Of a DNA stretch of 64,000 nucleotides, positions 9,944 to 51,608 are shown piece after piece. The stretch lies in contig CAIKMQ010000040.1 of assembly GCA_903828565.1 (NCBI GenBank), forward strand, positions 62,001 through 126,000. Reading direction: 5' to 3'. Below the pieces are notes generated by a model. The model was not told the origin of the DNA. It worked only from the letters and a program-made list of their open reading frames with translations, and did no database searches. The position numbers were made by a program, and so were the translations under genes. How positions within the stretch are numbered: position 1 is the stretch's first letter; the number at the start of each line of letters is the position of its first letter. This DNA is from an uncultured Leptolinea sp. (lineage in GTDB: Bacteria; Chloroflexota; Anaerolineae; Anaerolineales; Anaerolineaceae).

Positions 9944-9975
9944 TACAATCATATTCATTCTTGTGAATATGATTG
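9944..9975 (+). promoter_or_regulatory. ArsR-type operator overlapping a -10 element
   Basis: A perfect 12-bp inverted repeat, CAATCATATTCA - TTCTTG - TGAATATGATTG (9946-9975), overlaps a -10 box TACAAT (9944-9949). ATTCA/TGAAT half-sites of this spacing are typical of ArsR/SmtB repressors. Its position over the promoter of the arsR gene indicates autorepression. Confidence 0.82.
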
Positions 9976-9986
9976 TCAGGAACATA

Positions 9987-10358
9987 ATGGAAAACACTAC
10001 CGAGCAATTGTTAAAACTCCTCGCAAGCAGCGCCAGGCTCTCCATCCTTGAAGAACTCAGGGAGGGCGAGCATTGCGTCTGCCATCTGGAAGCCCACCTC
10101 GGTATGCGGCAGGCAAAGATCTCTCAACATCTGAGCGTTTTGCGCCAGGCAGGCCTGGTGGTAGACCGCAGGGATGGGTGGAATGTGTATTATGCGCTGA
10201 CCGATCCACGCCTGCTGGATCTGATCAACCTGGCCCGTAATATGAGTGGCAGTATAAAAACAGACAAACACAGTCCGGAGGTGGATTGTCCATGCCCTCA
10301 CTGTGCAAAACAATCAAAACAAGGAGAAGAAAATGACACAGATCAAAATCCTCGGTAG
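9987..10358 (+). CDS. arsR: ArsR-family metal(loid)-responsive repressor
   Basis: 123 aa winged-helix repressor. Helix-turn-helix region RQAKISQHLSVLRQAGLV and wing RRDGWNVYYALTD. A CVCH motif (Cys30, Cys32) at the ArsR alpha-3 position is the classic As(III)/Sb(III) site; the C-terminus adds CPCPHC, a possible second metal site. The start at 9987 is preferred because a GTG at 9963 lies inside the operator and AGGA precedes the 9987 ATG. It heads an operon with a thioredoxin-like protein and a CxC permease and faces acr3, so arsenite is the most likely inducer. Confidence 0.9.
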   Translation: MENTTEQLLKLLASSARLSILEELREGEHCVCHLEAHLGMRQAKISQHLSVLRQAGLVVDRRDGWNVYYALTDPRLLDLINLARNMSGSIKTDKHSPEVDCPCPHCAKQSKQGEENDTDQNPR

Positions 10359-10572
10359 CGGATGTGCCAATTGTAAGCGGCTGGAAGCCCTCACACGGAA
10401 AGTAGTGGAAGAGAAAGGTGTTCAGGCAGAGATCGAAAAGGTCACTGAGTATCCCGAGATCATGAAGTGGAACATTCTTTCCACCCCCGGGCTGGTGATC
10501 GACGGCAAGGTCGTTTCTTACGGCCGCATCCCATCTGAGCAGGAGATCGCTGCCTGGCTGACTGCCAAATAA
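10333..10572 (+). CDS. Thioredoxin-like small redox protein (CANC)
   Basis: 79 aa, a minimal thioredoxin fold of the redox-active disulfide protein 2 (thioredoxin_3) type. Active site GSGCANCKR (Cys11, Cys14) and the cis-Pro segment STPGLVIDG. The start is set by AAGGAG 7 nt upstream and overlaps the arsR end by 26 nt, showing translational coupling. Relatives are often beside arsR and the CxC permease; a role in reducing arsenical or thiol substrates is plausible but not shown. Confidence 0.88.
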   Translation: MTQIKILGSGCANCKRLEALTRKVVEEKGVQAEIEKVTEYPEIMKWNILSTPGLVIDGKVVSYGRIPSEQEIAAWLTAK

Positions 10573-10594
10573 GCCTGCCGGTAGCGTACCATCC

Positions 10595-11629
10595 ATGAAA
10601 ACAAAACTTTCATCGCTCCGACTCTGGTTGGTCATGGCATTAGCCATCCTCCTCTGGGGTCTGGCTTACAGCGCGCTGCAACCCCTATCCAGTTGGCTGG
10701 TATATACTGCTCTGAAAATGCCGGCAGATTCCCGGCTGGCAGAATCGCTTGCATTTTTTCTGTACGATGTACCCAAAATCCTGCTGCTCCTTTCGGGCAT
10801 GATCTTTCTGATCTCCGTTCTACGCACCTTCTTCACACCAGAACGCGCTCGTGCTATGCTGGGAGGGAAGCGCCAGGGTCTCGGGAATATCCTCGCAGCC
10901 CTGCTTGGCATTGTCACCCCCTTTTGCTCCTGTTCAGCTGTCCCTCTCTTCATTGGTTTTGTGGAGAGCGGAATTCCGCTCGGGGTCACCTTCTCTTTCC
11001 TCATCGCTGCTCCGACCATCAACGAGGTTGCCATTGTCCTGCTGTTGGGCCTCTTCGGTTGGAAAACGACGCTGATCTACATCGGCTCCGGTTTGTTGAT
11101 CGCCATCTTAGCGGGTATGCTCATCGGACGATTGAAGTTGGAAAGGTATGTGGAGGATTTCGTCTGGCAGGTCCAGCTTTCTCAACCTGCCGAAGATGAT
11201 CAACTGACATGGGAAATGCGCATTCAGCGCGCGTTGGATTCTGTTCGTGACATCCTGAGGAAGGTTTGGCTGTATGTAATCCTGGGTATTGCCATCGGTG
11301 CGCTCATCCACGGCTTCGTCCCCGGTGAAGCATTGGCACAGGTGATGGGTAAAAAAGCCTGGTGGTCCGTACCGGCGGCGGTGCTTATCGGCATCCCGTT
11401 ATACTCCAACGCGGCTGGTGTCATCCCGATCGTCAGCGCATTGATGGAAAAAGGCGCTTCTCTGGGAACAGCGCTGGCTTTTATGATGGCTGTAGTTGGC
11501 CTCAGTCTGCCTGAAACGATCATCCTGCGGCGAGTGTTGAAGCCGCAACTGCTGGCAATCTTTGTCGGGACGGTAGCTATCGCCATCATCCTGATCGGTT
11601 ACCTCTTCAATCTCCTCCCATTAGCCTAA
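10595..11629 (+). CDS. CxC permease of the ArsP/DUF318 type
   Basis: 344 aa integral membrane protein with eight or more helices in two halves. The conserved segment PFCSCSAVP (Cys111, Cys113) and SFLIAAPTINEVAIVLL are hallmarks of the ArsP_1 (DUF318) permease family, some members of which export trivalent organoarsenicals. A cytoplasmic loop of charged residues (about 180-215) splits the halves. It is third in the operon after arsR and the thioredoxin-like gene. Substrate is not proved; organoarsenicals or another thiophilic metal(loid) are possible. Confidence 0.85.
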   Translation: MKTKLSSLRLWLVMALAILLWGLAYSALQPLSSWLVYTALKMPADSRLAESLAFFLYDVPKILLLLSGMIFLISVLRTFFTPERARAMLGGKRQGLGNILAALLGIVTPFCSCSAVPLFIGFVESGIPLGVTFSFLIAAPTINEVAIVLLLGLFGWKTTLIYIGSGLLIAILAGMLIGRLKLERYVEDFVWQVQLSQPAEDDQLTWEMRIQRALDSVRDILRKVWLYVILGIAIGALIHGFVPGEALAQVMGKKAWWSVPAAVLIGIPLYSNAAGVIPIVSALMEKGASLGTALAFMMAVVGLSLPETIILRRVLKPQLLAIFVGTVAIAIILIGYLFNLLPLA

Positions 11630-11652
11630 TCGCTGTATATTTTGATTAATAG

Positions 11653-11683
11653 AACAGACCGTGCCTGAAAAGCACGGTCTGTT
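11653..11683. terminator. Bidirectional terminator between permease and acr3
   Basis: 12-bp perfect stem AACAGACCGTGC/GCACGGTCTGTT with a 7-nt loop, between convergent genes. ACTTTTA follows on the plus strand. Confidence 0.85.
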
Positions 11684-11707
11684 ACTTTTATCAAGCTAAT
11701 ATCCTGG

Positions 11708-12769
11708 TCATCCTTTGGCCGGGGTGAAAAACTTATGTTTTAACCTGAAAGCTACATTCACCAGCCCAATCATCACCGGCACTTCAACCAGCGGGCCAAC
11801 CACAGCTGCGAAAGCCTGGCCGGACCCCAACCCAAAGACCGCTACTGCCACGGCAATAGCCAACTCAAAGTTATTACTGGCAGCAGTGAAGGAGAGCGTG
11901 GTGGTCTGGCTGTAATTCGCCCCGATGGCCTTACCCATAAAGAAGCTGACCAGGAACATCACCACGAAATAGATCAACAGCGGGATGGCTATGCGGACCA
12001 CATCCAGCGGGATCGAAACGATCAGATTCCCTTTGAGCGAGAACATTACCAGGATGGTGAAAAGTAGTGCCAGTAAAGTAATAGGGCTGATGCGCGGAAT
12101 GAACTTGTGGTAATACCATTCGCTGCCCTTCAAACGCGTGAGCACCTGGTTGGTGATGAAACCGGCAAGGAATGGGATGCCCAGATAGATGAAGACCGAT
12201 CGAGCGATCTCGCCAATGGTGATATGTACCACGGTGCCTGAAAGGCCAAACCAGGTGGGTAACAAGGTAATAAAAAAATAAGCATAAACACTGTAGAAAA
12301 GCACCTGGAAGATGCTGTTGAAAGCCACCAATCCGGCGGCGTAATCGGTATCTCCCTGGGCCAGTTCATTCCAAACAATGACCATGGCAATGCAGCGTGC
12401 CAGCCCGATCAGGATCAAACCTGCCATATACTCCGGGTATCCTCGCAGAAAGGCGATGGCCAGCACGAACATCAATACCGGGCCGATCAGCCAGTTCTGC
12501 ACCAGAGAGAGTCCCAGAACCTTCCAATTACGGAAGACCTTGCCCAGCTCGTTGTAGTGGACCTTTGCCAGCGGCGGGTACATCATCAGTATCAAGCCGA
12601 TCGCGATTGGTATGTTGGTCGTGCCTACTGAAACTACCCGGTTGAAACCTTCCACAGCCGCAGGTGCCAGGTATCCCAACAAGACCCCAGCCGCCATTGC
12701 CAGAAAGATCCAAAGTGTCAGGTACCTGTCCAGAAAGGATAGTTTCTTGGAAACACTGCTCGTTGTCAT
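11708..12769 (-). CDS. acr3: ACR3-type arsenite efflux transporter
   Basis: 353 aa with ten predicted membrane helices. Diagnostic ACR3 motif in helix 4: [19 protein letters not shown] with Cys126, the conserved arsenite-binding Cys; also the [15 protein letters not shown] segment near residue 300. It exports As(OH)3/AsO2- using the proton motive force. The start at 12769 is chosen because GAGG lies 6 nt upstream; another Met two codons earlier is also possible. It converges on the arsR operon. An AT-rich upstream region carries a partial ATATGATT half-site like that of the arsR operator, but no full dyad. Confidence 0.95.
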
Positions 12770-12931
12770 GGGCATCCTCACTTTTTTGTTTTCTAATAAA
12801 TAATCGACCTGCATTTGATTGGTAAGTAGATATATGATTATTATAAATATTATTTTCAAATCTATCATACAGTTGCCAGGCGTAATAATCCCCAACCCGA
12901 CCGGGGCGAAGGAGATACATTGATTAAAACG

Positions 12932-12964
12932 AAAAGCCCCGGGTTTCAACCACCTGGGACTTTC
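12932..12964 (-). terminator. Terminator of tRNA-Pro
   Basis: Stem AAAGTCCCAGGT/ACCCGGGGCTTT with mismatches, followed on the minus strand by TTCGTTTT, 6 nt after the tRNA. Confidence 0.75.
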
Positions 12965-15483: not shown

Positions 15484-15577
15484 ACTTCAATGGGTATCAT
15501 ACTTGCATCTATCCTCATGATCACCGGCGGATGCTGTCAATTCAGCGTCACTGGAAATGACCTGTCTGAGGATGAAT

Positions 15578-17320
15578 ATGTCTGGATCGACTGCCCGGAA
15601 CCCAATTTCAACACACCACACAACCCGTTTTCGCCTGCTTAGCGTTCTGACTGTTCTCTGTCTGCTCCTCCCGGCCTTGACTGCCTGTGCCAATGATTAC
15701 GTATCACTCGATCAGATCCAGGAACCGTCCACATCATTACCGGCTGCGCAGCAATCTGCCAGCGAACCGGTTGCAGCTGATGTCAGCATTGATATCCAAA
15801 AGACCGCACAGGCGATCAGTTTCCCGGAAAGTGAACCGGATTCCGCCACCATCCTCATCTCTGCCCCATCAATATCCGGATCCGGCGGGAAGCCTCTCAG
15901 TGCGGCACAAGCGGAAGAGATCACCCCGGTATCAGACACCCACCCTTCAACAAGTATTGATACTCAAGTTGCCAGTACCAATACAAGGCTTACAACCTCT
16001 GTGCGTCTTCCTTACCAGTACACGATCCAATCTGGGGATACTCTGCAAGGCTTGACCCGCCGGTTTGGGGTTCAGGCCGGCGAGATCATCTCGACAGATG
16101 TCCTCCCGGAGACTGGCCTGTTGGAAACCGGCAAATTGATCACCATTCCCGCAAAAAGCACCGCACAGCTATTCTCCACCCGCTTGCTTCCAGATAGCGA
16201 ACTGGTTTTCTCACCTTCCGCGCTGGATTTTGACATGGACAGTTACATTGTTGATTCTGGAGGATACCTGGCAACCTACCGGGAATACCTGAACAGCACC
16301 GGTTGGCTAAGTGGAGCTGCCATCATTCGGAAAATCGCCACGGATAATTCCATCAACCCGCGCCTGCTGCTTTCGTTGCTGCAATATCACAGCAACTGGG
16401 TAAGCGGACAACCGGCTGATCAGGCGGCTCGTGATTATCCCCTGGGATACAAGGACCCACTGAAGAAGGGATTATATTCCCAACTCACCTGGGCAGTAAA
16501 TCAGATTTCTTATGCTTATTACGGCTGGCGTGAAGGCCAGGTGACCGAATTCACCTTCGCTGACGGCACGAGCATACCTGCTGCCCCAGACCTGAACGCG
16601 GGAACCTTCGCTTTGGAATACCTGCTCAGTCAATTGAATACACCAGCAACATTCGGTGAAGCATTATCCTCGTCCGCTGGCCTGCCGGCTAAACACCAGG
16701 CCATGTTTGGCGACCCCTGGGCCCGCGCCGTTGTATATGAGCCGGTGTACTCTTCTTCCATCAAACAACCCAGTTTGATCCTGCCGATCGAGCCGGGTGT
16801 CGAATGGTCCTTCACCGGCGGCCCGCACCCTGCATGGGGTAAGCAAGGAGCACTGGCAGCCATCGATTTTGCCCCATCAGGTGCCAGTGGATGCTCTGTT
16901 TCCAATGAATGGATACTGGCATCCGCCAGTGGCATTGTTGCCCGGTCGGGCGGCGGAGTGGTCATGCTGGACCTGGATGGCGATGGGAATGAACAAACCG
17001 GCTGGAATCTCTTGTATATGCATATTTCTTCCCAGGATCGTCCTGCTGTTGGAACCTGGTTAAAACAGGGTGACCATCTTGGCCATCCCTCGTGTGAAGG
17101 TGGAGTGTCGACAGGTACGCATTTCCACTTTGCCCGAAAATATAACGGGGAGTGGATCCAGGCTGGCGGACCGCTGCCATTCGATCTGGATGGATGGATT
17201 GCCTCAGCCGGAACTGAAGCCTATAAAGGCACACTCAGCCGGGGTGATCAGTTAATCACTGCCTGTACCTGCGGCACTTCAGAAACCTACATCTTCCGCG
17301 ACAATCCGTCTGAGAATTAA
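15578..17320 (+). CDS. LysM and M23 endopeptidase lipoprotein, copy 1
   Basis: 580 aa secreted lipoprotein. The start is the ATG at 15578, with GAGG 7 nt upstream; the signal ends in LTAC. After a Ser/Pro-rich linker comes one LysM repeat (about 145-190; YTIQSGDTLQGLTRRF), a central domain found also in the next gene, and a C-terminal LytM/M23 domain with GGPHPAWG, AIDFAP and THFHFAR supplying zinc ligands. It is expected to bind peptidoglycan and cut its peptide cross-bridges. A 25-nt gap separates it from a clear paralogue. Unusually, it includes a GDGNEQTGW segment resembling a calcium-binding loop. Confidence 0.9.
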   Translation: MSGSTARNPISTHHTTRFRLLSVLTVLCLLLPALTACANDYVSLDQIQEPSTSLPAAQQSASEPVAADVSIDIQKTAQAISFPESEPDSATILISAPSISGSGGKPLSAAQAEEITPVSDTHPSTSIDTQVASTNTRLTTSVRLPYQYTIQSGDTLQGLTRRFGVQAGEIISTDVLPETGLLETGKLITIPAKSTAQLFSTRLLPDSELVFSPSALDFDMDSYIVDSGGYLATYREYLNSTGWLSGAAIIRKIATDNSINPRLLLSLLQYHSNWVSGQPADQAARDYPLGYKDPLKKGLYSQLTWAVNQISYAYYGWREGQVTEFTFADGTSIPAAPDLNAGTFALEYLLSQLNTPATFGEALSSSAGLPAKHQAMFGDPWARAVVYEPVYSSSIKQPSLILPIEPGVEWSFTGGPHPAWGKQGALAAIDFAPSGASGCSVSNEWILASASGIVARSGGGVVMLDLDGDGNEQTGWNLLYMHISSQDRPAVGTWLKQGDHLGHPSCEGGVSTGTHFHFARKYNGEWIQAGGPLPFDLDGWIASAGTEAYKGTLSRGDQLITACTCGTSETYIFRDNPSEN

Positions 17321-17345
17321 ACGGAGTGGGTTACAATTAGCCCCG

Positions 17346-18848
17346 ATGCCTAAGAAAAAAGACCGATCACAGCGAGGGGTAGCCGAGCACCCACGTTCAT
17401 CCATAATACCAGTGATTCTGCTCGCTGCCATATTTTCTGCCTGCGCCCCGGCTTTGCCGGCCACCTCCCTACCAACCGCGACACCTTACACATCTGAAGG
17501 GCAGCCGTTACCGACACTCCTCCCTACACGCGAAGAGTTCAACCCGGGCCAGCTGGTGGATTACACAGTTCAGGATGGGGATACCGTGCCCGCACTGGCT
17601 AAACGCTTCAACACCAACATGGATGAGATCCTGACAGCCAATCCGGTCCTCCCACAATCCACCACCACGCTTCCCCCGGGATTACCACTGCAAATTCCAA
17701 TTTACTATCTTCCTCTCTGGGGTTCTTCTTATAAGATCTTACCGGATGCCTTATTCGTCAACGGCCCGGCTGCGCGTGATTTTGATACGATAAGTTATGT
17801 GGCAAAATCCAGCGGATGGCTCAAGAATTACCGGGTGTGGGCTTATGGAGGTTGGCGGGGAGGAGGGGAACTGGTGGATTACATCGCCACCAGTTACAGC
17901 ATCAGCCCGCGAGTATTGCTGGCTTTGTTGGAATACCAGCTGGGTGCTCTTACCCACCCTACCATACCAGCCGGTGTAGATAATGAAGCGCTCGGCTTTC
18001 CCCGCCTGTATCATGAAAGCCTGTATCTCCAGTTGTTGATGGCAGCAGATACACTAAATGCCGGGTACTATGGCTGGCGGACAGGGGATCTACTTTCCAC
18101 CGAATTGCAGGACGGTAGCCTGCTTCGTTTTGATCCCTGGCTGAACGCGGGTACCGTCGGTTTGCAGAACTATTTCTCGAAAACCCTTACTCCTAGCGGC
18201 TATGCGCATGCCGTATCCGGTATTGGCTTGAATTATACCTATACGGAGCTTTTCGGTTCAATCTCCGAGGAGACAGCTGAACTGATACCCGGCAGCCTGA
18301 CGCAACCCGAAATGCTGCTGCCTTTCACTCCTGGAAAAGTCTGGTCTTATACCGGCGCACCGCACCCGGCCTGGGGAGAGAATGAACCCTGGGCAGCCAT
18401 AGACTTTGCCCCGCCGGCAGAAAAAGGTGGCTGCGCTCCATCTGAAGAATGGGCCACAGCTGTTGCTGACGGTGTATTGAGCCGTACTGAACTCGGCCTG
18501 GCAATGTTGGACCTGGATCGCGATGGAGATGAACGAACCGGCTGGGTTGTGCTGTACCTTCACCTGTCCCGCTATGATGCGGCCCCGCAGGGAAGGATCG
18601 TTTCAGCTGGCTCGGTCATTGGGCATCCCTCCTGTGAACGCGGGAATGCCACGGGTACTCATATCCACATTGCACGCAAGTACAATGGTGAATGGATTCC
18701 CGCTGATGGTACTTTGCCATTCGATATGGAGGGATGGATCCCCCATTCTGCAGGTACACCCTACAAGGGAACGCTTACCCGATTCACCAAAACGCTGACA
18801 GCATGTACCTGTGCAGATGTGGATACCCAGCTTGAATCTGGTAAATAG
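17346..18848 (+). CDS. LysM and M23 endopeptidase lipoprotein, copy 2
   Basis: 500 aa paralogue of the preceding protein with the same order: lipoprotein signal (IFSAC), linker, LysM (YTVQDGDTVPALAKRF), the same central domain (NYRVWAYGGWRGGGELVDYIATSYSISPRVLLALLEYQ region), and C-terminal M23 with GAPHPAWG, AIDFAP and THIHIAR. The GDGDERTGW loop is also kept. Tandem duplication followed by divergence of the linker is the simplest account. Likely role is cell-wall remodelling. Confidence 0.9.
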   Translation: MPKKKDRSQRGVAEHPRSSIIPVILLAAIFSACAPALPATSLPTATPYTSEGQPLPTLLPTREEFNPGQLVDYTVQDGDTVPALAKRFNTNMDEILTANPVLPQSTTTLPPGLPLQIPIYYLPLWGSSYKILPDALFVNGPAARDFDTISYVAKSSGWLKNYRVWAYGGWRGGGELVDYIATSYSISPRVLLALLEYQLGALTHPTIPAGVDNEALGFPRLYHESLYLQLLMAADTLNAGYYGWRTGDLLSTELQDGSLLRFDPWLNAGTVGLQNYFSKTLTPSGYAHAVSGIGLNYTYTELFGSISEETAELIPGSLTQPEMLLPFTPGKVWSYTGAPHPAWGENEPWAAIDFAPPAEKGGCAPSEEWATAVADGVLSRTELGLAMLDLDRDGDERTGWVVLYLHLSRYDAAPQGRIVSAGSVIGHPSCERGNATGTHIHIARKYNGEWIPADGTLPFDMEGWIPHSAGTPYKGTLTRFTKTLTACTCADVDTQLESGK

Positions 18849-18943: not shown

Positions 18944-19363
18944 TCAGCCTTCACTGATCTCGTAGCGTACCTGTATCGGGAATGATTGACTGAGCATGGC
19001 GAAAGCCGGGCAGTACTTTTGATTGGATAGTTCGATCGCCCTTTCAACCGATGCGGGGTTGATGTTGGTTCCCTTCAGATGGTAAACGATCTCTGCACGG
19101 GTAAATACTTTCGGGTGTTCATCCGCACGGTCAGCATGAACAGAAACCTCGAAAGAAGTTACATCCTCTTTCTTCTTCTGCAGAATGGAGATCACATCCA
19201 TGGCTGTGCATCCCGCCAGGCTGACGGCCATCAGCTCGATCGGGCGAAAACCTGCATTCTCAGTTCCATCCTCCTCCTGGCTGCCCAGTGAAATAACCTG
19301 CCCGGTATTGGCGGTGCCATTGAAAGCCAATCCGCTATTCTTCCAGATAACCCTTGCATCCAT
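18944..19363 (-). CDS. OsmC/Ohr-family thiol peroxidase
   Basis: 139 aa. Two redox cysteines in the expected places: LAGCTAMDVISIL (near 54) and NQKYCPAFAML (near 118). The family reduces organic hydroperoxides through these thiols. It is the last gene of the selA-to-osmC directon, 20 nt after the UGA-containing oxidoreductase, which makes a shared peroxide-defence role likely. Family assignment is secure; the substrate is not. Confidence 0.92.
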   Translation of the reverse strand: MDARVIWKNSGLAFNGTANTGQVISLGSQEEDGTENAGFRPIELMAVSLAGCTAMDVISILQKKKEDVTSFEVSVHADRADEHPKVFTRAEIVYHLKGTNINPASVERAIELSNQKYCPAFAMLSQSFPIQVRYEISEG

Positions 19364-19383: not shown

Positions 19384-20052
19384 TTACGATTTCAATGCCC
19401 GTGTAATAGCTGCAACCAATTGCTCTTCAGGTCCGGAACCAACAACGGTTTCAGCACCGCTATTAATCGTGGTCTGCGGAACTCCACTCACATGGAACTG
19501 GTTAGATAGTTCCGGAAATTCGATCGCTTCCACCATCTCTGCCTGAATATGCGGATTTTCGATTGCGAATGCCTGTGCCAGGTTCACGGCTGGCGGGCAG
19601 TACGGTCAGGTGGGTGTAACGAACACCTGAAGAAGCACATCCTCTTTCACCCCTGCCAGAAATTCCAGCGTCTCCTTACTTAATCCACCGGTGCGGTGGG
19701 ATGCCATGATGATCGAGTTGATGAAGGAGGTAAACTCATGCCCGGATGGCATTCCCGCATAGCGCACACCGAGATCCCGAAGTTCTTCTCCTTCTTTAGC
19801 AGTGAGGACGATAGCGGGGGACTTATCCACACGGTAAGCACTTGCGAGCTCTTTGTCTTTTTCCAGGTCATGATAACTGGCGGTGAGTTTCCCGGACAGC
19901 GGGACTACTTCTTCCACCAGCTGCCGGGTCGGCTCACAATATTCACATCGTTCTTCAGAACCAAAGAACAGCAGGTGAACAGGTTGAGATAATTCCTCGG
20001 TGAACACTTCGCTCACCTGCTGCGCAACTGTATCATTCAATAATCTTTCCAT
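19384..20052 (-). CDS. PDO-type protein disulfide oxidoreductase, candidate selenoprotein (UxxC)
   Basis: Two thioredoxin folds in about 222 residues, the size of glutaredoxin-like PDO proteins. The N-terminal half has CEYC (near 44-47). At 19606-19608 an in-frame TGA stands exactly where the first Cys of the C-terminal active site belongs: VTPT-TGA-PYCPPAVNLA, so U-P-Y-C against CPYC in the family. The frame continues for 74 codons with a normal fold, including the cis-Pro segment SGVPQTTIN, to a true stop. selA lies in the same directon and tRNA-Sec is in the window, so Sec insertion is likely. The start at 20052 has GAGGTGG upstream. A conventional caller would split it into two ORFs. Confidence 0.88.
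19570..19599 (-). promoter_or_regulatory. Candidate bacterial SECIS stem-loop
   Basis: Directly downstream of the UGA, GCCAG (12-16 nt after it) pairs with CTGGC around an 8-nt loop CCGTGAAC; an outer helix TGCC/GGCA extends the stem across a small internal loop. Distance from UGA to apical loop (16 nt) is in the range known for bacterial SECIS elements. Read by eye, not folded. Confidence 0.6.
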
Positions 20053-20098: not shown

Positions 20099-20287
20099 TC
20101 AGGTATAAGAACCGGTGTCAGAGTGCCCGCAGGTATTGCACACCAATTCAGCACTACAATTAAAACTCATCACAGAAGATCCACATACCGGGCAATGGAT
20201 TTTATATTTCTCAAACTCATCGCCTGTTTTGAAACTTGATGCCTGTTTGCTCACATCGGCGAGTTCCCGAGGTAGGTCAGAGCTCAC
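20099..20287 (-). CDS. Small zinc-ribbon protein
   Basis: 62 aa. A GTG start with GGGAG 8 nt upstream, overlapping the anti-sigma stop region, supports real translation. The C-terminal half has CPVC and CNTC, a four-Cys zinc ribbon; the N-terminal half is helical and charged. It sits between the anti-sigma factor and the PDO selenoprotein candidate. Four clustered cysteines in a redox operon could serve as zinc or redox sensor, but I do not recognise the family. Confidence 0.7.
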   Translation of the reverse strand: MSSDLPRELADVSKQASSFKTGDEFEKYKIHCPVCGSSVMSFNCSAELVCNTCGHSDTGSYT

Positions 20288-20289
20288 AA

Positions 20290-20547
20290 TTACTCCCTGG
20301 TTCCCGGAAGGTAATCCAGCAGGTTCAGCTCCATGTACAGGTGTTCCCGCATCTTATCCGGCATCATTTCCTGGCAGGCTTCATCATGATAGAGCGAGAT
20401 GGTCTTGCGAAGCGTGTCCACCACGATGCGGCAGTTCTGGCATCCACGCAGATGTTCTTCCAGCCTGGTGCAGACTTCAGGCTGGATATCACCATCCAGG
20501 TAATCTTCAATTGATTTGAGAAGTTCACTACAATTATCGTGATCCAT
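20290..20547 (-). CDS. Zinc-binding anti-sigma factor (ZAS/zf-HC2)
   Basis: 85 aa soluble protein. The motif HLRGCQNC with an upstream His region gives the H-x3-C-x2-C signature of zinc anti-sigma domains that hold ECF sigma factors and often release them on thiol oxidation. It starts 2 nt after the sigma stop. No membrane helix, so signal sensing is cytoplasmic. Partner is inferred from adjacency. Confidence 0.88.
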   Translation of the reverse strand: MDHDNCSELLKSIEDYLDGDIQPEVCTRLEEHLRGCQNCRIVVDTLRKTISLYHDEACQEMMPDKMREHLYMELNLLDYLPGTRE

Positions 20548-20549
20548 AC

Positions 20550-21149
20550 TTACTGTCCTTGCGAGGTACCCTGAAAATAATGGGTCAGTTCTTCCCGCAA
20601 TATCAACCGGGCGCGAAGTAAGCGGGTCTTTACTGCTGAATCTGTCAACCCGAGCACCTGCGCCGTTTCACGGATGGAGAGATCTTCCATATCTCGCAGT
20701 TGAAATACAATCCGTAGTTTTTCCGGCAATCCTGCCACCGCTTTATCCATTTCTCTGCGAAGCTCCGCATCCATCGTTTCTACTTCCGGCCTGCAACACC
20801 AATCTTCAATCTCCACCGGGTTTGTCTCACCTTCACCCATGTCAATTTCTGCATCGATGGAAACCAGGTTTCCTTTTCGTCGGCGAGTCGCCATCAAAGC
20901 CTCGTTAACGGCGATCCGGTAGATCCATGTTGCCAGGCTGCTGCGGCCTTCAAAGTTGCGAATACCGTGGAACACTTTGATGAACGTCTCCTGGATGATA
21001 TCTTCCGCGTCCTGCTCTGAGTGGAGGATATTCATAGCAATCCGGTAGACCGGGTTAGAGAACTGCTCCACCAGGGCTGCCAGTTCACCCCGATTACCCT
21101 GTTTCAGCAAATCCAGATCGATCTCTCGTTTGGTGACAGTGCTATTCAT
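20550..21149 (-). CDS. ECF-family RNA polymerase sigma factor
   Basis: 199 aa. Region 2 (NPVYRIAMNILHSEQDAEDIIQETFIKVF pattern: QDAEDIIQETF) and region 4 (LRIVFQLRDMEDLSIRETAQVLG pattern: SIRETAQVLGLT) are plain, with no region 3, as in ECF sigma factors. It starts 28 nt after tsaD and is followed by its presumed zinc anti-sigma, a zinc ribbon, the PDO selenoprotein candidate and an OsmC protein. The arrangement resembles thiol-stress sigma/anti-sigma pairs such as SigR/RsrA. Confidence 0.94.
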   Translation of the reverse strand: MNSTVTKREIDLDLLKQGNRGELAALVEQFSNPVYRIAMNILHSEQDAEDIIQETFIKVFHGIRNFEGRSSLATWIYRIAVNEALMATRRRKGNLVSIDAEIDMGEGETNPVEIEDWCCRPEVETMDAELRREMDKAVAGLPEKLRIVFQLRDMEDLSIRETAQVLGLTDSAVKTRLLRARLILREELTHYFQGTSQGQ

Positions 21150-22233: not shown

Positions 22234-23439
22234 TTAGTCCTTCCTTGTCGACAGAACCAGGTTCATGGGGAAATCTGCCAGTTTGGAAAATGAACCATTG
22301 CTTTCAGCCAGGTAGGTATCTTCCAGGCGAACTCCCATCCCTTGATCCGGGTAGTAAAGACCGGGTTCAATGGTGAAGATACTACCGGGGACGAGCAGAT
22401 CATTCGTTGCCATGCTCATACTGAACCAGGGAGCTTCATGAACAGCCAATCCGAGGCCGTGTCCGAGGCTGTGAACATATCCATCGGTCGTGCCGGGATG
22501 CGTGAGAATTGTGGGATGTCCCAACTTGCTAAATAGGTCACACGTGAGGCTTTGATAGTCTTTGCACAACCTGCCGGGAGCAAGTTCCCCAACGACCGCT
22601 TGATAAACGCTGAGAACATCCTCATACAACTTCGCCACCGCGTCCGGTGCATACCCCAAACACCAGGTACGGGTAAAATCATAGAAATAACCTCCCTGCG
22701 CTTCACAGGGAAAAATATCAAAAACGATCGGCTTGCCCAATTCCAAGATATCTTCTGCTGACCCGGCGCTGTGCGGAATGCCCGCATCTCTGCCGATGGA
22801 GAAGATTGTTCCCTCCGGGTTTTCCGCCCCTTCTTCTGCCAGCCAGAGATTGATCTGTTTCTTCACCTCGCCAACCCGCAATGGATCTCCAACCGAATTT
22901 AGCAAATGATTTCCATGCACCTTCGCGGTACTCAGCATGTCTGCCACCCGGCCAACCACGCGTGTGGTTACCACACCCATCAGTCGGATGCGTTCGATCT
23001 CGCCGGGTTCTTTGGTAGTCCGCGCAGCCATCAGGATCGTATCCTGCGGTTCTCCAACGAGCTCATACTCCGGGGCTATCCGTTGTAACTCCTGCATCAC
23101 AGAAAGGAATTCGCCGGCATCCACCTGCCCGTAAAAAGCCACCCGACCGGTACGCAGTCCATTATCCTGCAGCATCCAGCGCATTTCCATAGCCAGGGAA
23201 GCCGGATCGGTCTTCAGCGTTTGGTGGAGCTTTGCCTGCAGGCCGGTACGGGCAGCTTCTTCCCGCTCCATCGGATAACAGTAAATGACAGGTTCGCTGC
23301 CCCTGGCTTTTACCAGGCTAGCTTTAAAATGCCCGCCGCCGCTCATATAGACCATGGCAGGATTGTGATCACCTGCCCCATTCACGATCACGGCATCCAG
23401 CCCACGCGCTGCCATCAATTCATCCAGTTGCTGTTTCAT
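22234..23439 (-). CDS. M24 family Xaa-Pro peptidase
   Basis: 401 aa cytoplasmic metallopeptidase. An N-terminal creatinase-like domain precedes a pita-bread C-terminal domain with the five metal ligands: FDIFP and YDFTRT (two Asp), HSLGHGLGLAVHE (His), FTIEPGLY (Glu) and RLEDT (Glu). Such enzymes remove residues next to proline. The start overlaps the selA stop by 4 nt. Aminopeptidase versus dipeptidase cannot be separated by eye. Confidence 0.92.
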   Translation of the reverse strand: MKQQLDELMAARGLDAVIVNGAGDHNPAMVYMSGGGHFKASLVKARGSEPVIYCYPMEREEAARTGLQAKLHQTLKTDPASLAMEMRWMLQDNGLRTGRVAFYGQVDAGEFLSVMQELQRIAPEYELVGEPQDTILMAARTTKEPGEIERIRLMGVVTTRVVGRVADMLSTAKVHGNHLLNSVGDPLRVGEVKKQINLWLAEEGAENPEGTIFSIGRDAGIPHSAGSAEDILELGKPIVFDIFPCEAQGGYFYDFTRTWCLGYAPDAVAKLYEDVLSVYQAVVGELAPGRLCKDYQSLTCDLFSKLGHPTILTHPGTTDGYVHSLGHGLGLAVHEAPWFSMSMATNDLLVPGSIFTIEPGLYYPDQGMGVRLEDTYLAESNGSFSKLADFPMNLVLSTRKD

Positions 23440-24797
23440 TTGCTCGTCCTGTAAGCGGGGTAGTTTTTATTCAGGGTTGCCAGCAGCATCCCTTCTTCTT
23501 CTTTCTGCACAGTGCGCGGATCAAACACTGCCCGTCCGTCAACGATCCTGGCAATCACCGGGACTTCCGCACCTCTCAACTGTTTCATAAAACGATCCAC
23601 CGAATTTACGGGAAGCGACAGCAACCAGGTTGGGAGGGTTTCTCCGGGCAGGCTGCCACCACCAACAGTGGATTCACCGGGTACCACTTCTCCGGCATTC
23701 AATTGGTCTTGCCAGTAGAGTGCTCGTTCCCGGACAACATCCACCGGCATGGAGATCATGCGCCAGATCGGGATCTGCTGCTCAGCTTCTCCAAGTAAGT
23801 AATGAGTCAATGTGGCTGCCAGTCCGGCCAGTGTCATTTTGTCCGCTCTTAGAGCCCGGGCTAGTGGATGTTTCTTGATCTTACGTATCAGCTCGGCTTT
23901 GCCGGCAATGATACCCGCCTGCGGACCACCCAGTAGTTTATCACCGGAGAAACTGACAATATCTGCCCCATCCAGGATCGATTCTTGAACCATAGATTCG
24001 TGCTGCATACCGTAAGCAGAAGTATCCAGAAAAGTTCCTGAACCGAGGTCATCAAGCAGCAGCGCGTTGGAAGCTTGCGCAGCCTTTGCCAGTTGTGCCA
24101 GAACGGGTTGATCTGTGAACCCGATGATCTTAAAGTTGGATGGATGGACGCGGATGATACTGGCAGCCCCGCCCGTCAATGCGTCTTCATAATCTGACAG
24201 GTGGACCTGGTTGGTCGTCCCGATCTCCATCATGTGGGCACCAGACTGGTGCATGACATCCGGTACGCGGAAACTGCCGCCAATTTCCACCAGTTGAGAG
24301 CGGGAGATGGCCACCCGTTTACCTTTCATTAAAGCTGAAAGTATAAGCAGGACTGCACCGGCATTATTATTCACCACCAATGCCGCTTCGGCTCCGCTCA
24401 AGCGTGTTACCAACCGTTCACAATGAACCTGTCGGGAACCCCGTACACCTGCGGTTACATCATATTCGAGGGTATTGTAAGACTGCCCGGCTTGCAGCAT
24501 GGCAGCCAGCGCAGCCGCGCTCAACGGTGCCCGCCCGAGATTGGTATGCAGGATGACACCAGTAGCATTGATCACCGGTGTGAGTGTAGGCCGGGTAAGT
24601 GTGTGGATGCGGGATTCCACCATCGCAAGGATCCCTTCCCCAGCAGGAATGACAACATCCTGCCTGTCACGCAATTCTTGCAGGATCTCCCTGAGTTGGC
24701 CCACAACAAGGGTGTGCGAGTATTGATTGATCAACTGACTGCCGGAGGGCAGCCGGAGCAGGGAATCCACGGAAGGAATCAGATGTTGGTCCTTCAT
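23436..24797 (-). CDS. selA: L-seryl-tRNA(Sec) selenium transferase
   Basis: 453 aa PLP enzyme that converts Ser-tRNA(Sec) to Sec-tRNA(Sec) with selenophosphate. Features: N-terminal dimer region LPSVDSLLRLPSG, NATGVILHTNLGRAPLS, EYDVTAGVRGSR, and the PLP-lysine segment FSGDKLLGGPQAG with Lys287. It overlaps both neighbours by 4 nt, so it is firmly inside the directon that ends with the UGA-containing PDO gene. tRNA-Sec is at 51515; selB and selD are not in the window. Confidence 0.97.
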   Translation of the reverse strand: MKDQHLIPSVDSLLRLPSGSQLINQYSHTLVVGQLREILQELRDRQDVVIPAGEGILAMVESRIHTLTRPTLTPVINATGVILHTNLGRAPLSAAALAAMLQAGQSYNTLEYDVTAGVRGSRQVHCERLVTRLSGAEAALVVNNNAGAVLLILSALMKGKRVAISRSQLVEIGGSFRVPDVMHQSGAHMMEIGTTNQVHLSDYEDALTGGAASIIRVHPSNFKIIGFTDQPVLAQLAKAAQASNALLLDDLGSGTFLDTSAYGMQHESMVQESILDGADIVSFSGDKLLGGPQAGIIAGKAELIRKIKKHPLARALRADKMTLAGLAATLTHYLLGEAEQQIPIWRMISMPVDVVRERALYWQDQLNAGEVVPGESTVGGGSLPGETLPTWLLSLPVNSVDRFMKQLRGAEVPVIARIVDGRAVFDPRTVQKEEEGMLLATLNKNYPAYRTSK

Positions 24798-51375: not shown

Positions 51376-51514
51376 GGGTTCACATTGTATGCATTGAATA
51401 TGACACGGGGATTCCGGGCTGCACCAGGTTGGCTGATTTTTATATCCATCGACCTGATTACCATCTCAGAATTACTACGCTCTTGTACGAGGAATGTCCT
51501 CGTTAATAATCAGG

Positions 51515-51608
51515 CGGGAATGGATGGGTGTCGAACCCACAGCGGCCCGCAACGCGACCCGCCACCGGTTTTGAAGACCGGGGAGCCCACCGGGACTCAA
51601 CCACTCCC
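51515..51608 (-). tRNA. selC: tRNA-Sec (anticodon TCA)
   Basis: 94 nt. An 8-bp acceptor stem GGGAGTGG/CCATTCCC, anticodon stem CCGGT with loop containing TCA, a long variable arm (GGCGGGTCGCG...CGGGCCGC), and T-arm TGGG/CCCA around TTCGACA-type loop. G73, then CCT, so CCA is not encoded. The long acceptor and variable arm identify tRNA(Sec), which decodes UGA with SelB. selA is at 23436. Confidence 0.95.

Follow-up and report, generated by a model that had tools for sequence, protein, structure and literature searches.

A protein disulfide oxidoreductase with a predicted selenocysteine in its C-terminal active site, and alternating selenocysteine and cysteine forms among relatives, in an Anaerolineaceae genome

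The stretch of 64,000 nucleotides analyzed here (hereafter, the window) derives from an uncultured Leptolinea sp. and carries, on its minus strand, a gene for a protein disulfide oxidoreductase (PDO) whose reading frame is interrupted by a single TGA. This gene, two components of the selenocysteine (Sec) machinery and the conserved neighbors of the locus are as follows.

18944..19363, minus strand: OsmC-family protein, Cys form, a conserved neighbor downstream of the PDO gene in the same direction (PF02566, E 4.6e-19)
19384..20052, minus strand: predicted Sec-containing PDO gene, 222 aa, with UGA read as Sec149 (TIGR02187 and 1a8l matches, AlphaFold2 model)
19386-19384, minus strand: TAA stop codon of the PDO gene (reading frame)
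19570..19599, minus strand: SECIS-like hairpin, 7-36 nt past the UGA (folding, covariation, bSECIS rules)
19597..19599, minus strand: TGC, Cys152, predicted resolving residue at the C-terminal site (no variation among 57 aligned sequences)
19606..19608, minus strand: in-frame TGA, predicted Sec149 at the start of the C-terminal U-P-Y-C (codon alignment with relatives)
19936..19947, minus strand: N-terminal active site C36-E-Y-C39 (translation and alignment)
20099..20293, minus strand, start approximate: small putative zinc-ribbon ORF (CPVC...CNTC) between the anti-sigma and PDO genes, absent from the ORF list (sub-threshold Pfam matches only)
20290..20547, minus strand: zinc-finger (zf-HC2) anti-sigma-like protein with HLRGCQNC (PF13490, E 5.8e-10)
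20550..21149, minus strand: ECF-type sigma factor (PF04542, E 5e-19; PF08281, E 6.5e-15)
23436..24797, minus strand: selA, upstream of the PDO gene in the same direction (TIGR00474, E 1e-154, over cut-off)
51513..51608, minus strand: selC, tRNA-Sec with anticodon tca (ARAGORN; RF01852, 70.8 bits)

A preliminary description of this DNA had joined two abutting ORFs (19606-20052 and 19384-19605) across the TGA, placed the TGA at the first Cys of a C-terminal CPYC motif and attributed both flanks to one PDO with CEYC in its first half, and all of this was borne out. With the TGA taken as a residue, 19384-20052 is an unbroken frame of 222 aa whose only TGA falls at residue 149 (VTPT-U-PYCPPAV), and its translation places the redox sites at residues 36-39 (CEYC) and 149-152 (U-P-Y-C). 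Comparison of the joined translation with protein families, proposed at the time as a check, returned TIGR02187 at E 9.8e-76 (253.7 bits against a curated cut-off of 185; residues 7-218 of 222). In a phmmer search, residues 4-216 aligned with 1a8l, the PDO of Pyrococcus furiosus (E 3.2e-45), in which the first Cys of CPYC faces the UGA. A single-sequence AlphaFold2 model was poor (pLDDT 42), and the alignment-based model (57 homologues; pLDDT 97.9) was used instead. Foldseek ranked PDOs at positions 1 to 8 for this model, with TM scores to the query of 0.86-0.93 (0.92 for 1a8l). The model comprises two thioredoxin folds, both bearing a site of CxxC type, and the second fold is complete and confident. 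The joined frame is thus one two-thioredoxin-fold PDO with UGA at its C-terminal Cys.

The position of the UGA is strictly shared. It occupies one identical codon in 39/39 UGA-bearing PDOs, each from a different genome of the class, and such placement cannot be attributed to chance; 51 other PDOs have a Cys codon (TGC or TGT) in that column. A search of 61 related genomes gave 31 PDO matches, 8 of them with one TGA and none with another stop, and in a broader sample from the class (298 genomes) 33 among the matches listed had one TGA each. TAA or TAG inside PDO matches was reported in neither draw among the matches listed. Residue 149 (Sec or Cys) and C152 never vary in the PDO alignment, nor do P79 and P192, presumably the cis-prolines; the N-terminal cysteines are nearly, not fully, invariant. 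The N-terminal CxxC pair has been lost, and the C-terminal site kept, in one Sec form (L026, UPYC) and one Cys form (L024, CPAC); since these two proteins dispense with the N-terminal pair, it is the C-terminal site that seems to be essential.

Selection on the PDO appears equally strong past the TGA. Against a same-genus relative (64% identical), dN/dS was 0.171 before the UGA and 0.142 after it, ratios that are rough because synonymous changes approach saturation (dS about 1.7). These data bear on whether the TGA is an artifact of sequencing or assembly, or a nonsense mutation that recently turned the gene into a pseudogene. In favor of this, the source is a draft assembly of 48 contigs and a single base separates TGA from TGC or TGT. 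Yet TGA stands at the same codon in the separate assembly of that same-genus relative (MAG 'Anaerolinea sp. SW.3.17'), which speaks against the earlier doubt over a TGC misread as TGA, and at the same codon in 37 further genomes; the sequence downstream retains a dN/dS of 0.14, and TGA is the only stop reported inside the PDO matches listed. The repeated presence of UGA at a single codon of a gene under purifying selection refutes error or pseudogenization, whose remaining probability we regard as negligible.

The same conservation argues against the UGA being a genuine stop, which would yield a 148-residue, one-and-a-half-domain protein, perhaps accompanied by a separate C-terminal piece. Ribosomes would halt at the UGA if no Sec were loaded, and some truncated product is to be expected at low selenium. 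However, the C-terminal part shows no weaker conservation than the N-terminal part, has neither a ribosome-binding site nor an early start before the active site, and as a separate piece would be devoid of the active-site residue; moreover, the second thioredoxin fold is complete and confident in the full-length model. Termination as the normal fate of this mRNA is therefore very unlikely.

A tree of 90 PDO sequences requires, by parsimony, at least 17 changes between Sec and Cys labels, at least 9 of which are forced by well-supported branches, with bootstrap support not fully settled (an earlier quick tree gave 15 changes, 6 forced) and with gains and losses not separated by the method. The gene order selA-M24 peptidase-TsaD-ECF sigma-zinc anti-sigma-PDO-OsmC recurs, in the same direction, in Sec relatives (L065, L067 and L071) and Cys relatives (L073, L074 and L075) of the family, so that Sec and Cys alternate in one true orthologue. 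In another Sec relative, L066, the neighborhood search did not find the sigma and anti-sigma genes. Beyond the operon, two adjacent, similar LysM/M23-like peptidase ORFs lie on the plus strand (15557-18848), and up to three copies stand beside the PDO operon in relatives. Farther off, the adjacent genes at 9963-12949 read like a metalloid-handling cluster; they encode an ArsR-like regulator, an Acr3-like transporter, a permease and a small thioredoxin-like protein with CxxC (10303-10572).

The genome is fully equipped for Sec synthesis and insertion. The presence of selA in the direction of the PDO gene and of selC within the window, both noted in the preliminary description, was confirmed. 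The selB and selD genes, whose absence would have counted against a selenoprotein, were found elsewhere in the genome, SelB on contig 10 (331 bits, over cut-off) and SelD on contig 9 (L114, 15133-16065; 354 bits). The selD gene has an in-frame UGA at NCAGUASK, and the selenophosphate synthetase gene is hence itself a selenoprotein gene. With selA, selB, selC and selD all present, the Sec machinery is complete. Among the 39 genomes with a UGA-bearing PDO, 38 give a strong match to tRNA-Sec or SelB, and the remaining one is an 87% complete assembly in 690 contigs. Most genomes with a Cys-form PDO also have tRNA-Sec, which removes a further objection raised at the outset, namely, TGC homologues confined to genomes devoid of Sec genes. 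Since many Cys-form genomes have Sec genes, the machinery is necessary for, and not predictive of, UGA in the PDO. Strong tRNA-Sec matches were not enriched in UGA genomes over Cys genomes (26/39 versus 63/80), and we accordingly used Sec-gene co-occurrence only as a necessary condition. A whole-window scan for other UGA/Cys-motif candidates, judged by eye, gave no further convincing one.

Selenocysteine insertion in bacteria would also call for a recoding hairpin, and the preliminary description had pointed to a plausible SECIS stem after the UGA. The stem is there: an inner stem pairs 19594-19590 with 19581-19577 (GCCAG/CUGGC), an outer stem pairs UGCC with GGCA, and the apical loop (19589-19582) reads CCGUGAAC, with G in third place. 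As a single sequence its folding energy is unremarkable (z -0.3 to -1.2), and UGA genes are not distinguished from Cys PDO genes by their unrestricted best-hairpin energy (p 0.59); the two groups are told apart only by fixed-position, codon and covariation tests. The hairpin thus becomes convincing by comparison with relatives and not from the window sequence alone. In the register common to 16 UGA genes, 96.9% of cells are paired, against 14-54% in slid registers, and the hairpin is less regular in Cys PDO genes. The third pair is GC in 11 of the 16 genes, CG in 3 and AU in 2, with 5 compensatory cells and the codon pairs CGA/CTC, CCA/CTG and CAA/CTT. None of 500 shuffles reached the covariation score; shared ancestry can inflate such counts, and the three pair types are nonetheless scattered over the tree. 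Codon choice in UGA versus Cys genes favors the stem as well (CTC Leu, p 0.005; CGA Arg, p 0.005; GCC Ala, p 0.008; all uncorrected for several tests and relatedness).

Published bSECIS rules ask for a loop of 3-9 nt, a stem of 4-16 bp, a spacing of 16-37 nt, a minimum free energy of at most -7.5 and a G in the first two loop positions (PMC13188914). The window hairpin fits in loop (8), stem (5), spacing (16) and energy (-12.9) and misses the last rule, its G being third in the loop, while a weaker alternative hairpin (-9.3) fits all of them. The rules hold for 33/39 UGA genes versus 24/51 Cys genes (Fisher p 0.0003), the 6 failing UGA genes including that of the congener of the window's genome. 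In other lineages, some UGA PDOs (L076, L080, L097, L105 and relatives) do not form the +17 hairpin; theirs has its loop, with GGU, at +22, so that one gene family has two recoding-signal geometries.

Decoding of the UGA as Cys or Trp, through a changed code or a suppressor, would likewise give a full-length protein, and Cys, present at this site in the homologues, is chemically workable. Against this, TGA ends 11/46 frames of >=250 codons in the window and is therefore a normal stop, not a sense codon, here; the window's tRNA-Cys has the anticodon gca; the genome has SelA, SelB, SelD and a tRNA-Sec with the anticodon tca; and this redox site, with a conserved hairpin behind it, is the only place where the UGA recurs. 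We consider insertion of another amino acid to be extremely unlikely.

The evidence for a selenoprotein is sequence-based, comprising the gene, the UGA position, homology, selection past the UGA, Sec genes, the covarying hairpin and the fold, and from it we infer actual Sec insertion. The UPYC selenoprotein first put forward as a candidate is well supported by the UGA/Cys alignment, the complete Sec genes and the conserved hairpin, and the gene very probably encodes a two-site thiol/selenol redox protein into which Sec149 would be inserted under the direction of SelB and the hairpin. As the UGA sits exactly at the reactive Cys position, the cell almost certainly inserts Sec there. SelD and SelA would make Sec-tRNA-Sec, SelB would carry it, and the hairpin just 3' of the UGA would recruit loaded SelB for insertion of Sec149. 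In the mature two-thioredoxin-fold protein, the CEYC and UPYC sites may form a dithiol/selenol-thiol relay, with Sec149 as the predicted attacking residue and Cys152 as the resolving one. Archaeal PDOs are reduced by NADPH-thioredoxin reductase, and one of them reduces the redox regulator SurR (PMC7278568). As to redox direction, partner and substrates, we infer that electrons would most likely come from the cell's NADPH-thioredoxin reductase, a thioredoxin reductase gene being present in the same genome, and that the PDO would reduce protein disulfides.

An ECF sigma factor and a zinc anti-sigma factor stand at the head of the operon, and we therefore propose that thiol oxidation probably induces its expression. 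The pair resembles the sigmaR/RsrA thiol-stress switch (PMC4960319), and may by analogy sense redox state. A feedback loop is conceivable, if rather doubtful, in which thiol oxidation would free the sigma factor and raise Sec-PDO (possibly also SelA) levels, Sec-PDO would reset the anti-sigma factor, and lineages would tune this one orthologous enzyme through repeated exchanges of Sec and Cys, the hairpin being gained or lost in step.

Whether PDO-type selenoproteins had been described before, left open in the preliminary description, can be answered: Sec proteins of TIGR02187 were predicted in 2006. That survey listed a 'homolog of AhpF, amino-terminal domain' as a selenoprotein family in Carboxydothermus and Symbiobacterium (PMC1794560), reviews of 2022 and 2026 enter the same family as TIGR02187, UxxC (PMC9312934, PMC13188914), and the NCBIfam model bears the name PDO_seleno_TRX. 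The window's protein shares with these 'homolog of AhpF N-terminal domain / Grx-like domain protein' selenoproteins (Carboxydothermus hydrogenoformans ABB15282.1, Symbiobacterium thermophilum) the NCBIfam family, a single Sec and the UxxC motif, a likeness at the level of family, Sec number and motif. Whereas the published examples come from Clostridia and Symbiobacterium, ours belongs to an Anaerolinea-like Chloroflexota lineage with many alternating Cys and Sec forms; a search of the open-licence literature found no paper on the Sec-TIGR02187 family in Chloroflexota. Archaeal and Aquifex PDOs (1a8l of P. furiosus, 1j08 of Pyrococcus horikoshii, 2ayt/2ywm of Aquifex aeolicus) are homologous over the full length, with both CxxC sites and TM scores of 0.91-0.93, but have Cys where the window's PDO has UGA. 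The AhpF N-terminal domain (1zyn, 5h29) has the same two-thioredoxin-fold architecture (TM 0.76-0.85); it is fused to a flavoprotein, whereas the window's PDO stands alone and scores far below the AhpF profile cut-off. Sec-containing glutaredoxins and thioredoxins (UxxC) similarly have Sec for the attacking Cys of a thioredoxin-fold CxxC (PMC13188914), yet these are single-domain proteins, and here Sec lies in the second of two domains. The TIGR02187 family being already listed as a selenoprotein family, this PDO is a well-supported new example and not a new kind.

To conclude, this PDO gene alone solves no long-standing puzzle, and gene callers cut it before its active site in such genomes. 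Within the class of this genome it is one orthologous gene, at one conserved locus in several lineages, with Sec and Cys forms in close relatives nearly all of which keep the Sec machinery. With the same protein, the same neighbors, the same position and many independent switches, it offers a clean natural set for asking why lineages keep or drop Sec.
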